Source of the DNA: Lachnospiraceae bacterium
GTDB taxonomy: Bacteria > Bacillota > Clostridia > Lachnospirales > Lachnospiraceae
Direction of reading: 5' to 3'
Length of the DNA: 64,000 nt
NCBI GenBank assembly: GCA_017521605.1
Contig: JAFXCD010000015.1
Span: forward strand, 32,062-96,061
Under the pieces are notes generated by a model, which was not told the DNA's origin, did no database searches, and was given only the letters and a program-made list of their open reading frames with translations. Below, piece by piece: positions 38,880 to 42,303 of this stretch (position 1 is its first letter; the number at the start of each line of letters is the position of its first letter). The position numbers and the translations under genes are program-made.

Positions 38880-40019
38880 TTAGTCACTACCCCCTGCCTT
38901 AAAATTGTAAATAGGCTTTATCACCTTGTCAATTTCCACAGTATCTCCGATAACCTCCAGCATGTCCTCAATTTGTCGATAAGCAAAAGGGGACTCGTCC
39001 AAGGTATCCTTATTCACACATATGGAGTGAATTCCCTTCATGGACTCCTTAAACTCTGCCACGGTATGATGCTCCTTAACCTCGGAGCGTCTGTAAATCC
39101 GTCCCGAACCGTGAGGTGCAGAACAATTCCAGTCCTCATTCCCCTTTCCGGTACCCAGGATAATACCATCCCGCATATTAATAGGGATAATCACCTGTTC
39201 TCCTTCTAACGCTCGTATTGCGCCCTTTCGCAAAATGGGCACCTCTTTGGAAAAATCCACATAATTGTGAATGCAGGAATAGCTTTCCAATACCTTCCAC
39301 TTCATGCCGCTTACAATTTCCTCAATCATAGCTTCTCTGTTTAGCGCTGCATACTCTTGCACCAACGCCAAATCGTGCAGATAGTCCTGTAACAGTCCAC
39401 CGCTTAAGCAGGTCATAAGATAAGGAGCGTGCCCTCCCTGCTTCTTTTCCTGCTGCTTACTCTGACCGGCCCGCAAGTAATAATCCGTTACCTCCATTCC
39501 TAAATGCCTGCTGCCGGAATGAATCACCAGATAAATATTTCCTTCTTCATCCTTATCCACTTCGATGAAATGATTACCTCCCCCAAGAGTACCTATGCTC
39601 TTTTCCGCTTTGGCAGAATCTATGGCTTTGTAGCATTTCAATTCCCTCAGGTCAATTCTTTCAGCGAATTTATGGATTTTCTTCCGCACATTGCCTCCTA
39701 CGGGCACCTGCTCGCGAATCACTGTATCCAACTTCTGACATTCCACATTTTTGGCTTTTACCTTGGCCAAAGTCATACCACAGCCCATATCTACTCCTAC
39801 CAGACTGGGCAGCAGGCTTTCTCCCACTGTCATAGTCAGACCGATAGTTCCCACCTTACCCGGATGTACATCCGGCATGACACGGATTTTACTTCCTCGT
39901 GCACTTGGATGATCACAAATCATCTGTAGCTGTTTTCTGGCATAGTCATCTATTGCATACTCTTCTCTATTTGTTGTATAAACTATTGCATTTGTATATT
40001 TGCCGTAAATTGTTATCAT
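38880..40019 (-). CDS. rtcB: RtcB family RNA ligase
   Basis: 379 residues. RtcB joins 2',3'-cyclic phosphate (or 3'-phosphate) and 5'-OH RNA ends using Mn2+ and GTP, acting in RNA repair. Visible motifs: PDVHPGKVG, GVDMGCG near 72-78 (metal-binding Asp and Cys), GGGNHFIEV, HSGSRHLG, IHNYVDF and APHGSGR, the last carrying the histidine guanylylated in this family. It is shorter than the ~408-residue E. coli type, as is common for clostridial members. The RBS AAGGAAG lies between the start codon and a large structured element at 40046-40200. No RtcA or Ro60-like gene is nearby. Confidence 0.93.
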   Translation of the reverse strand: MITIYGKYTNAIVYTTNREEYAIDDYARKQLQMICDHPSARGSKIRVMPDVHPGKVGTIGLTMTVGESLLPSLVGVDMGCGMTLAKVKAKNVECQKLDTVIREQVPVGGNVRKKIHKFAERIDLRELKCYKAIDSAKAEKSIGTLGGGNHFIEVDKDEEGNIYLVIHSGSRHLGMEVTDYYLRAGQSKQQEKKQGGHAPYLMTCLSGGLLQDYLHDLALVQEYAALNREAMIEEIVSGMKWKVLESYSCIHNYVDFSKEVPILRKGAIRALEGEQVIIPINMRDGIILGTGKGNEDWNCSAPHGSGRIYRRSEVKEHHTVAEFKESMKGIHSICVNKDTLDESPFAYRQIEDMLEVIGDTVEIDKVIKPIYNFKAGGSD

Positions 40020-40045
40020 ATAAATCTTCCTTTCTTCTTTTAAAT

Positions 40046-40200
40046 GTACCTATTCAGCGCATACATTCGCAAAATCGCCTTTACAAGGCTTTCCTTTTGC
40101 TCATGTATAGCTTCTCGCCATATAAATCTACAAAATCAGTCCTTTACAAGCAAGCTTGTACGGCCTGTATTTGTAGATTTGCATGGCTCTGAATAGGTAC
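40046..40200 (-). ncRNA. Candidate structured RNA / rtcB leader element (three-way junction)
   Basis: On the minus strand this 155-nt stretch folds into a clean three-way junction. P1 is a perfect 12-bp stem, 40189-40200 with 40046-40057. P2 pairs 40183-40187 with 40117-40121 and 40170-40180 with 40124-40134 around a 2x2 internal loop, topped by a TACAAG/CTTGTA hairpin (40155-40160 with 40145-40150). P3 pairs 40103-40108 with 40061-40066 and 40095-40099 with 40070-40074 around a 3x3 purine-rich loop, topped by GCCTT/AAGGC (40085-40089 with 40077-40081). It ends 26 nt before the rtcB start codon. It has no recognised Rfam-type motif; a small mobile repeat is the main alternative. Confidence 0.6.
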
Positions 40201-40225
40201 AAAAAAACACCTTATTCCAGGTGCT
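40201..40225 (-). terminator. Intrinsic terminator inside the rtcB leader
   Basis: Minus strand: AGCACCT pairs with AGGTGTT (one G-T) across GGAATA, followed by seven T residues (40207-40201). It lies between the small reading frame and the structured element, so it either ends a short upstream transcript or acts as an attenuator for rtcB. Confidence 0.7.
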
Positions 40226-40276
40226 GATTGTCGACAAATATATATGCTTAATAAAGTGAGGTTCCAAACACTCCCA

Positions 40277-40348
40277 CTATCTATTTGCAAGGACAACCAG
40301 CCCCTGATTACATCGTATGAAATTATTGCTTATAATACTCTGCTGCAT
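40277..40348 (-). CDS. Possible 23-residue leader peptide
   Basis: Frame MQQSIISNNFIRCNQGLVVL plus ANR, stop TAG. Its support is an excellent RBS, AAGGAGG five bases before the ATG, and its place between a consensus promoter and an intrinsic terminator. The RBS could be masked by pairing of GGACAA with a TTGTCC inside the frame. It is too short for homology reasoning; the ~210-nt transcript could also be a non-coding RNA. Confidence 0.35.
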   Translation of the reverse strand: MQQSIISNNFIRCNQGLVVLANR

Positions 40349-40382
40349 CTTGTCCTCCTTATCGAGCTTGGTTAACAGTTAC

Positions 40383-40446
40383 ATATACTAAGGGTCGTGC
40401 TCCCTTTACTGACCCTTAGTATATCGACTGATTCACAAAAAGTCAA
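40383..40446 (-). promoter_or_regulatory. Promoter and 14-bp dyad operator of the rtcB leader
   Basis: TTGACT (40446-40441), a 17-bp spacer and TATACT (40423-40418) form a near-consensus sigma-A promoter on the minus strand. A perfect inverted repeat, ATATACTAAGGGTC-N14-GACCCTTAGTATAT (40383-40396 and 40411-40424), covers the -10 and start site with one arm. That position and the lack of a T run suggest a repressor operator, not a terminator. Confidence 0.65.
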
Positions 40447-40479
40447 TAGCCTTTCCTCTTAATTTCTACCAGGGACTAA

Positions 40480-42303
40480 CTAACCTTTCTCTACATACCA
40501 GCCTGCCTGCGTCTGAAACATCTCAGCATAAATTCCGTTCAAGGCCAGCAGTTCCTCATGAGTTCCTGTTTCCAGTATGGTATTTTCTCCCAAAACAATA
40601 ATCTTGTCACAGAATTTGCAGGAAGATAATCTATGAGAAATATAAATAGCCGTTTTATTTTGAATTAATTGATTGAAATGATTATATATCTCAAATTCTG
40701 CTACCGGGTCAAGAGCTGCTGTAGGTTCATCCAAAATCACCAACGGTGCATCACAATACAGTGCTCTTGCAATAGCAATTTTTTGTGCCTGTCCCCCGGA
40801 AGGCTCCACACCCTCTTCATCGAATGCCTTACTCATCAGTGTATTTCCTTTGTTCTTTAATGTGCTTACCCATTGAGAAATACCACTCATATCATATATG
40901 TCTTGCAAATGACCTTCTGTTTTCTCTTCTCCTTCTAAATGATTCTCTGCTTCTCCAACTTGGATATTCTCATCCAAAGAATATCCAAACAGCTTAAAGT
41001 CCTGAAAGACAACTGACAACAGACGGACATACTCTTCATACTGATATTCCCTTATACTTTTGCCATTTACCTGTATCTCCCCTTCTGTCACATCATATAA
41101 ACCGCAAAGCAGCTTTACCAGTGTGGATTTTCCTGCACCGTTTAATCCCACAATAGATATTCTTTCTTCCTTATGTATTGTCAAATCAATATCTTTTAGT
41201 GTATATTTGTCCGCTCCCGGATACTTAAAGGATACTTTGTTAAAACGGATTTCCTCAAAATCTTCTCTTTTTATTGTCTGTGTTCCCTCTTTTTTATCAT
41301 TATCCAACGACATATACTCTATAAAGGCATGCATAAAATTACATTTCAGCATGAGTTGTTGGGAATGATTGATAATGGACAACAGACAACCGTTTGTAAA
41401 GGTTTCAATTGCTGTAATACACATAACAAACTCACCTATGGTCAATTGCTTTTGCAAAACCATAGCCCCCAAATAGCAATAGGAAAATGAATAACTTATT
41501 GTGGAAGCAAACACTCCTGGTATTCCCCAGGCAAACTGTTTTAATGCACATTCATTATCCATCTTATTCAGTTCCTTTGCATTGTGAATAGCCTTTTTCT
41601 CTACCAGCTGTGTTCCATCATATAAACGCAACTCTTTCGCATACTCACGGTTTGTAATTCTGGTATAAATATAGGAGTAAAATTTGTTAATTGCCGGTGT
41701 TTTCTCAAACACCTCCTGGGAAGCCTGATTGATTTTAGATGTACAAAAAGCCTCCACAACTACCGCCAAAAGTGCAGCCAGCAGTAGCCATAGGGATATT
41801 CTTGAAACTACCCATACCACTCCCAAAAACGTCACTATTGCAGAACAAATTCCAATGATACAATCGGATAATCCTCTTATTCCCCCTGAATACCATGACA
41901 TTCCTATTTCTGCCTTTTGTTCTGCATCCAATACACTTTCCATTTCCATGTCTTCATATTTCATTTTCATGGACTTTTCCGACATCTTTAAATCAAACAT
42001 TCTGGAAATCCAGTCTTCTTTCTTGGACCTTTCTTCCTGAAATATTTTATGTAAAACAGCAATGCAATAGTTTCCGACTACAATAAACAATACATAGATA
42101 ACTATATTTCTAATATTTTGATTCCCCATTATCTCTTCGATAATATACTTCGGAATTAATATATTAATGAAAGGAGCTACCGCCGTCATAACAACCAGTA
42201 AAAAAATCAATAGAAGATAACTACGCCTTTCCTTTCCGGCCATCCCATAAAAATAGGCACTGGTAGTAATGCATTTTGCTAATTTCGTCTTAGATTGCCT
42301 CAT
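40480..42303 (-). CDS. ABC exporter subunit (fused permease-ATPase)
   Basis: 607 residues from the ATG at 42303, chosen for the GGAGG upstream; it overlaps the previous gene by 14 bases. Six membrane helices are followed by an ATPase with Walker A GLNGAGKST, signature PSGGQAQK (LSGGQ with Pro for Leu), Walker B LVILDEPTAALD and the H-loop YISHR. With the upstream gene it should form a heterodimeric exporter of peptides, lipids or drugs. The altered signature motif suggests one of the two ATP sites may be weaker. Confidence 0.88.
   Translation of the reverse strand: MRQSKTKLAKCITTSAYFYGMAGKERRSYLLLIFLLVVMTAVAPFINILIPKYIIEEIMGNQNIRNIVIYVLFIVVGNYCIAVLHKIFQEERSKKEDWISRMFDLKMSEKSMKMKYEDMEMESVLDAEQKAEIGMSWYSGGIRGLSDCIIGICSAIVTFLGVVWVVSRISLWLLLAALLAVVVEAFCTSKINQASQEVFEKTPAINKFYSYIYTRITNREYAKELRLYDGTQLVEKKAIHNAKELNKMDNECALKQFAWGIPGVFASTISYSFSYCYLGAMVLQKQLTIGEFVMCITAIETFTNGCLLSIINHSQQLMLKCNFMHAFIEYMSLDNDKKEGTQTIKREDFEEIRFNKVSFKYPGADKYTLKDIDLTIHKEERISIVGLNGAGKSTLVKLLCGLYDVTEGEIQVNGKSIREYQYEEYVRLLSVVFQDFKLFGYSLDENIQVGEAENHLEGEEKTEGHLQDIYDMSGISQWVSTLKNKGNTLMSKAFDEEGVEPSGGQAQKIAIARALYCDAPLVILDEPTAALDPVAEFEIYNHFNQLIQNKTAIYISHRLSSCKFCDKIIVLGENTILETGTHEELLALNGIYAEMFQTQAGWYVEKG

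Follow-up and report, generated by a model that had tools for sequence, protein, structure and literature searches.

The locus raises the question of whether a strongly folding RNA element that ends immediately before the RNA ligase gene rtcB belongs to that gene. The window, meaning the whole stretch of 64,000 nucleotides of Lachnospiraceae DNA that was analysed, carries both on the minus strand. An earlier note, made from the letters alone, had described a three-way-junction RNA at this place and proposed that it could be an autoregulatory leader, a sensor of RNA damage or a substrate for ligation or circularisation. In the analysis described here the fold is assigned to a mobile element inserted behind the terminator of a candidate rtcB leader; it is not an rtcB-specific device.

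Position and fold of the element

The coordinates, the minus strand and the gap of 26 nt between the end of the element and the rtcB ATG (40019..40017, minus strand) were all correctly given in the earlier note. The features concerned were as follows.

38880..40019, minus strand: rtcB, RNA ligase, 379 aa (Pfam PF01139, 191.8 bits)
40046..40057, minus strand: 3' strand of P1, the right terminal inverted repeat (from the fold and IS66 transposon ends)
40059..40111, minus strand: P3 arm with the AUGAGC/GCGAAU motif, shared with the Clostridiales-1 model
40117..40187, minus strand: P2 arm, variable in sequence and covarying, with a GCUUGC apical segment (from the fold and covariation)
40189..40200, minus strand: 5' strand of P1, the left terminal inverted repeat (from the fold and the family consensus GTAACTATTCAG)
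40046..40200, minus strand: whole element, highly probable IS66-type MITE with a Clostridiales-1-like RNA (from the fold, the family model and a sub-threshold RF01699 match); ends GTACCTATTCAG...CTGAATAGGTAC

The minimum-free-energy fold was a three-way junction of -68.8 kcal/mol. It reproduced the proposed junction and the 12 perfect pairs of P1, whereas the pair counts given earlier for the other two helices were slightly off: P2 comprised 6 + 11 pairs with an apical part of 3 + 2 + 6, and P3 comprised 2 + 6, 6 and 5 pairs. The claim that such folding is unlikely by chance held, with 200 dinucleotide shuffles of the element giving -33 +/- 3.7 kcal/mol and none folding as well (z -9.73).

Rfam was searched with the whole window, and no family was matched at gathering score. 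At E up to 10, four matches were obtained within 39990-40520, namely RF01699 (Clostridiales-1) and three animal or plant microRNA families. The latter were far under their cut-offs (best E 0.009) and were taken as chance. Y-RNA models gave no match in the window at gathering score and were not among these four matches.

Distribution of the element

A protein search with the window RtcB gave matches in 36 of 138 same-genus genomes, from which 30 loci were fetched. The full-length element stood before rtcB at two of these 30 loci, the window and genome G115, and at the same site in both. Two other same-genus rtcB loci carried weak partial matches (28.5 and 13.3 bits). Further rtcB loci were taken from the best 80 of 439 relatives; one of the 80 had a strong match before rtcB, probably the same record as G115, and three had weak matches of 27-31 bits. 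These three matches were Clostridiales-1-like, came from Eubacterium ruminantium and relatives, and lay upstream of rtcB at L270:1054-1244, L274:1101-1248 and L275:1091-1255; those of L274 and L275 were positioned after a terminator-like hairpin.

When the window's own genome was searched at the DNA level, seven additional strong copies turned up on other contigs (E at most 1e-15), and many copies of the same repeat were found in relatives. A covariance model, R1, was built from an alignment of 25 copies. R1 matched at least 12 times in the own genome, at least once in at least 92 of 138 same-genus genomes, and in at least 183 of 397 genomes and at least 164 of 334 genera of the same family. 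These copy numbers are lower bounds because at most 21 candidates per genome were scored in the genus and at most seven in the family. R1 matches in the fetched loci (144 + 30) were restricted to sense matches above 100 bits, and one repeated place was removed, giving 112 copies with flanks. In phage and plasmid collections no record covered 80% of the element query; the best phage match, an unannotated fecal record, was 72.5% identical across 70% of the query (E 2e-6).

Three other observations were made on the repeat family and its surroundings. A short form on contig C79 of the own genome (L008:1484-1567) keeps both ends and P3 and is without P2. The right flanks of L115, L122, L123 and L127 contain partial tandem repeats of the P3/P1 end (GGCTCTGAATAG and similar), as if the ends had been duplicated. 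A match to Rfam SpF59_sRNA (RF02440; 69.7 bits, cut-off 37.2) was found on contig C16 of the own genome at L005:1708-1759, minus strand.

An rtcB-specific cis-regulatory RNA, whether autoregulatory leader or damage sensor, is largely refuted by this distribution and is considered very unlikely. It is favoured by the 26-nt distance to rtcB and by the same insertion, with its fold kept, in a second species; the full-length element is however present at only two genus rtcB loci, the one strong match elsewhere is probably a duplicate record, and 110 of the 112 collected copies lie elsewhere, as judged by their flanks. The earlier expectation of P1-P3 next to many rtcB genes was therefore not borne out within the genus. 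Dispersal of the same sequence as a transposable repeat, which the earlier note had named as the outcome that would tell against its proposal, was found in the own genome, the genus and the family. From the idea of a regulatory leader there remain a real fold, signs of selection as RNA, the place before rtcB and the same site in a second species; what fell away is the specificity for rtcB.

Terminal repeats, target duplications and an IS66 transposon

The 112 copies were reduced to 103 by dropping eight without the end motif or a 60-base flank and removing one duplicate. The consensus ends of the family were GTAACTATTCAG...CTGAATAGTTAC. Exact 8-bp target duplications flanked 19 of the 103 copies, compared with 0.28 expected when flanks were re-paired randomly (maximum two in 200 trials). 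No target duplication was visible around the window copy (GTTTTTTT vs ATTTAAAA), whose insertion is therefore old or whose flanks have decayed. We infer its insertion from the sibling copies, because its own duplication is absent. Its ends differ from the consensus GTAACTATTCAG by one base per end (GTACC).

A transposon with the same ends was found in the same genus. Genome G006 contains two 1817-bp copies (L197/L198) that are 99.8% identical, have 12-bp ends GTAACTATTCAG identical to the family consensus of the repeat, and are surrounded by perfect 8-bp duplications, ATTTTTAT and AAAAAAAC. Their sole ORF (485 aa) encodes a transposase of the IS66 family, with 146.7 bits for PF03050 (cut-off 23.1) and 263.2 bits for NCBIfam NF033517 (cut-off 180). 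A second IS66 transposase, 63% identical, lies in G003 between the variant ends GTAACTGTTCAG and GTATCTGTTCAG; GTAACTGTTCAG also terminates several elements of G151. GTAA ends together with 8-bp duplications are what we take to be the hallmarks of IS66. The accessible part of PMC8024623 on IS66 gives family names, and the hallmarks were not found in that part. The window's own genome, which may be incomplete, contained no close relative of the G006 transposase at E 1e-100. Close relatives were present in three of the 138 genus genomes, vs the element in at least 92. BLAST between transposon and element gave no local match at E 0.001.

Insertion after terminators was considered as a target rule and rejected, since terminators stood upstream of 10 of 111 copies and downstream of eight, which is no bias.

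We conclude that the element is, with high probability, a non-autonomous IS66-type MITE, about 150 bp long, whose structured RNA is distantly related to Clostridiales-1. An IS66-family transposase would recognise its 12-bp ends in trans (GTAACTATTCAG in the consensus, GTACCTATTCAG in the window copy). The element would insert mostly near gene starts, at A+T-rich sites, and 8 bp of the target would be duplicated. In the sense RNA the two ends would pair as P1 and the interior would form P2 and P3. Within the rtcB leader, the element would be transcribed by read-through of the terminator that abuts it, and its fold may act as a tolerated or stabilising 5' segment and not as an rtcB-specific sensor. 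The closed RNA ends, on which the proposed ligation or circularisation substrate was founded, need no link to ligation because P1 is the pair of transposon ends.

Selection on the fold as RNA

In the 25-copy alignment, covariation was seen as changes on both sides of 31 of 49 predicted pairs. In a sequence-only alignment of 101 copies, 29 of 45 pairs had two or more Watson-Crick types, with each type present in two or more copies. On the sense strand of this alignment G-U occupied 116 cells and A-C 38, with one pair set aside that is G-U in 99 of the 101 copies. Without that pair, a model-fitted alignment of 100 copies gave G-U 130 vs A-C 29. When pairs were instead chosen from the antisense fold, G-U was still in excess (68 vs 28). 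All of these counts ignore the kinship of the copies, and strand-biased mutation may be a partial cause of the excess.

The counts indicate that the fold has probably been selected as RNA, and on the strand that reads in the same direction as rtcB. A purely DNA-level palindrome, serving as a hairpin or cruciform in transposition and having no RNA role, would accord with the strong folding of the opposite strand (-62.7 kcal/mol, z -10.6) and with terminal repeats that are transposon ends. The G-U excess is not expected from DNA-only or other-strand structure, which is therefore disfavoured; it persists over antisense-fold pairs, and covarying internal arms are unnecessary for terminal repeats. 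We regard this explanation as improbable.

The surroundings of the copies were then compared. In the sense direction, 65 of 111 copies had the start of a gene with a Shine-Dalgarno sequence no more than 200 nt downstream (median 33 nt). Upstream, in the antisense direction, a gene start was near 40 of 111 (median 68 nt); 16 copies had a gene start on both sides and 22 on neither. Boxes resembling -10 elements stood just before the element in 36 of the 112 copies, but right ends had them too, in 25 of 112. With stricter promoter-like pairs (score at least 10), 10 of 112 ended just before the element and six of 112 pointed into its right end, vs 0.8 in shuffles. A rule by which the element inserts at promoters was not established, because promoter-like pairs are enriched at both ends.

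These figures also bear on whether the element is a free-standing multicopy small RNA gene, which is how Rfam types Clostridiales-1 (Gene; sRNA). That typing, the selection of the sense strand as RNA and the promoter-like pairs just before the element are in keeping with such a gene. Its ends, however, coincide with transposon ends and target duplications, the promoter-like pairs into the right end are likewise above shuffles, and the closeness of downstream gene starts fits a 5' leader. The small RNA gene is accordingly held to be unlikely, and a MITE whose RNA is under selection is preferred.

The copy shared by two species

The insertion at the rtcB site is common to two species, and its fold is intact in both. 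The window and G115 elements differ at 19 of 161 positions; 53 pairs are the same, four are changed by compensatory and three by consistent substitutions, and none is broken. Nineteen random substitutions broke 10.9 pairs on average and at least two in each of 20,000 trials. Outside the base of P3, which was left out because its change could be one exchange event with another copy, six substitutions broke no pair vs 3.6 expected (P 0.004). Two other same-site pairs among the 112 copies did lose pairs, with five broken in L172/L189 and one broken, by one substitution, in L186/L193. Because no pair was broken, the rtcB copy has kept its fold since the window and G115 lineages parted.

The RNA of this mobile copy may have been domesticated, now stabilising or tuning the rtcB mRNA downstream of the leader terminator. 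Domestication would be a later step on top of the MITE explanation and not an alternative origin. The absence of broken pairs, the compensatory changes, the deficit outside the P3 base and the losses in the other same-site pairs all speak for it; only two species are concerned, and the possible exchange event at the P3 base counts against it. Domestication is thus a real possibility that falls somewhat short of probable.

Relationship to Clostridiales-1 RNA

RF01699 matched the window element at 40051-40195 with 39.1 bits, under its gathering score of 48 (E 3.8e-7 for the 531 bases searched). The element aligned to the full model (1-166) with a matched P1-P3 layout, and the 34 model positions of the fourth helix, before the 3' strand of P1, corresponded to one base. 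By the Rfam cut-off the window copy is not a member of Clostridiales-1. Seven of 20 window-type sibling loci were matched by RF01699 at E up to 0.01, all below cut-off. In the other direction R1, whose E-values are rough, recovered the Rfam-type copy at 11 of 40 loci with E limited to 0.001 (highest score 39 bits, E 4.8e-7). The G006 copies that score highest with RF01699 were not matched by R1 even with the limit raised to E 1. RF01699 was over cut-off in 35 of 138 same-genus genomes and reached E at most 0.001 in 66 of 138; 14 control genomes gave no match.

Twenty Rfam-type copies were read, 18 of G006 and two of G147. Three RF01699 copies of G006 score identically. In 11 of the 20 a script recognised a 3' extension of 26-28 nt ending in an imperfect 18-bp terminal repeat, and these 11 had A+T-rich duplications of about 5 bp, exact in five vs 0.64 expected (maximum four in 500). 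None of the other nine had duplications, and two of them begin with a degenerate form of the extension. Because of the terminal repeats and duplications in the 11 copies, Rfam-type Clostridiales-1 also looks mobile. No transposase for these TGATG elements was recognised, by reading, in long ORFs at the candidate end pairs and single ends fetched from G006.

The window-type and Rfam-type elements appear to be two branches of a single superfamily, with P2, P3 and the AUGAGC/GCGAAU motif in common, by a link that lies at the limit of detection. Clostridiales-1 was published in 2010 (Weinberg et al.), according to the accessible part of PMC2864571 without an assigned function. In the titles and abstract beginnings of the literature searched, neither the mobile nature of a Clostridiales-1-type RNA nor an rtcB leader of the kind set out below is described.

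A candidate rtcB leader upstream of the element

Upstream of the element the window contains the following features.

40418..40446, minus strand: sigma-70-like promoter, TTGACT (40446-40441), 17 nt, TATACT (40423-40418), found by eye in a region conserved in G115
40277..40360, minus strand: leader ORF with Shine-Dalgarno AAGGAGG (40360-40354); 23 codons plus stop at 40348-40277, MQQSIISNNFIRCNQGLVVLANR
40298-40289, minus strand: anti-Shine-Dalgarno GGTTGTCCTT in the leader ORF
40224..40232, minus strand: predicted antiterminator strand GACAATCAG, whose partner in the leader ORF is 40300-40292
40201..40223, minus strand: terminator-like hairpin CACCTGGAATAAGGTG plus seven T, the last of which abuts the mobile element

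The leader ORF has a strong Shine-Dalgarno (AAGGAGGACAAG). An inverted repeat, TATACTAAGGGTC...GACCCTTAGTATA (40383-40423, minus strand), shares bases with the -10 box and in the leader RNA would give a hairpin close to the 5' end; it is conserved in G115 with a length difference of 2 nt.

Leaders were surveyed at 109 rtcB loci, with G115 counted once and three loci having less than 120 nt upstream. An ORF of 20-42 codons with a Shine-Dalgarno was present at 82 of the 109, and a looser definition gave 86 of 109. Complementarity between Shine-Dalgarno and ORF was individually significant in 46 of 86 leaders (p at most 0.05 vs 60 shuffles). Means were calculated over 57 non-redundant leaders, using the best candidate ORF for each. 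The native mean was 18.7 vs 15.9 with leaders swapped (none of 2000 permutations reached native), and shuffled bodies gave 12.5 (maximum 13.4 of 200). The partner of the Shine-Dalgarno lay 44-60 nt after the ATG in 53 of the 57. Six leaders of one subgroup had a complementarity of 10-11, which is shuffle level. Asparagine was the commonest residue after the start of the leader ORFs (10.9%).

In the terminator-like hairpin that first follows the ORF (48 distinct cases), the 5' arm and loop were complementary to AAAGGAGG, with a mean of 12.2 vs 7.4 in 43 control terminators, which have a slightly longer T run, and 9.5 in shuffled arms (maximum 10.3 of 200). Scores of at least 12 were reached by 33 of 48 rtcB leaders vs three of 43 controls. 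The string CACCT, which we take to be part of the 16S anti-Shine-Dalgarno, was present in the terminator arm of 28 of 48 rtcB leaders vs two of 43 controls. A strict pattern of Shine-Dalgarno and anti-Shine-Dalgarno was matched in two of 392 genomes of the order, both times directly before rtcB. At gathering score, Rfam matched only two tRNAs in 20 rtcB loci and nothing in the leader.

Taken as a whole, the window leader folds moderately better than its shuffles (z -2.4). In prediction, an antiterminator CUGGUUGUC:GACAAUCAG removes the terminator (probability 0.02). With a 30S subunit masked on the start site the terminator probability was 0.0001, and with the distal codons of the ORF covered it was 0.997. 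An antiterminator was predicted for both the window and G115 leaders. As a universal feature it was rejected: in simple folding the switch is not general, since the terminator probability dropped by more than 0.3 with a free leader ORF in only 10 of 57 leaders with a terminator. In a different group of rtcB loci (L212-L215, L274 and L275) a short Cys-containing ORF (ATGAAAGACAGA...) was seen by eye between a terminator-like hairpin and rtcB.

The conserved candidate leader upstream of the mobile element is the likelier regulatory device at rtcB. It may be an attenuator in which an ORF with a perfect Shine-Dalgarno has its own anti-Shine-Dalgarno among its distal codons and is followed by a terminator with a 5' arm that copies the 16S anti-Shine-Dalgarno.

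PrfH, RNA repair and ribosome state

A prfH-like gene was found in 49 of 110 rtcB loci, of which 36 have the leader; 46 leaders are at loci without prfH. The prfH-carrying loci include L216, L221, L222, L230, L238, L292, L306 and L310, from related Clostridia. The protein of L221 is identified as release factor H by its 192.4 bits against the TIGR03072 cut-off of 166.65. The window and G115 rtcB loci gave no prfH-like match, and the window RtcB was rejected as a prfH-linked RtcB (TIGR03073), at 105.1 bits being below the cut-off of 271.8.

The cut made by colicin E3 frees the 16S 3' end that carries the anti-Shine-Dalgarno. In the part of PMC9223846 that was accessible, E. coli RtcB2-PrfH is stated to repair the break that colicin E3 makes in 16S rRNA between A1493 and G1494. 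Because RtcB-PrfH repairs cut 16S rRNA and the leader has the Shine-Dalgarno and anti-Shine-Dalgarno features described above, a reading in which the leader measures occupancy by ribosomes with an intact 16S 3' end is an attractive hypothesis. Expression of rtcB would then follow such occupancy of the leader.

Implications

If the MITE reading is true, Clostridiales-1, an RNA family without an assigned function (PMC2864571, as accessible in part), would be placed in a mobile-element context, and a transposase family would be named that can carry one branch of the RNA. Selection would act on the fold and not on DNA ends alone, and a testable case would be available in which an RNA and a DNA transposon occupy one genome-wide niche in gut bacteria. 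The rtcB locus would be re-read, its leader features suggesting that RNA repair is controlled by ribosome state. A wider proposal joins both parts: Clostridiales-1 and the window-type element would form one superfamily of transposon-mobilised, selected RNAs with interchangeable terminal repeats (IS66-type GTAAC here, TGATG elsewhere) that seed ready-made 5' leaders across the gut family, and the rtcB leader would be a new kind of attenuator. This combination is tentative and, judged as a whole, rather doubtful.

Comparison with known systems

The RtcB2-PrfH operon (PMC9223846, as accessible in part) has its likeness in the prfH-like genes of related rtcB loci; the window and G115 loci differ from it in giving no prfH-like match, and the window RtcB in its score under the TIGR03073 cut-off. 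Clostridiales-1 has the same P1-P2-P3 plan, the GCUUGC apical segment and the AUGAGC...GCGAAU motif of P3, and is multicopy like the window element. It differs in its ends, TGATGCC with duplications of about 5 bp vs GTAACTATTCAG with 8 bp in the window type, whereas the window element is without most of the model's fourth helix and scores below gathering. IStrons, which combine a group I intron with an insertion sequence (PMC4227781, as accessible in part), likewise are DNA transposons that carry a structured RNA, but no group I intron model was matched in the window at gathering score and the element is non-autonomous. IS66 transposons and their MITEs resemble the element in their ends: although the element has no transposase and its interior is a conserved RNA fold and not an obvious deletion remnant, its family-consensus 12-bp ends are identical to those of a same-genus IS66 transposon, and both make 8-bp duplications.
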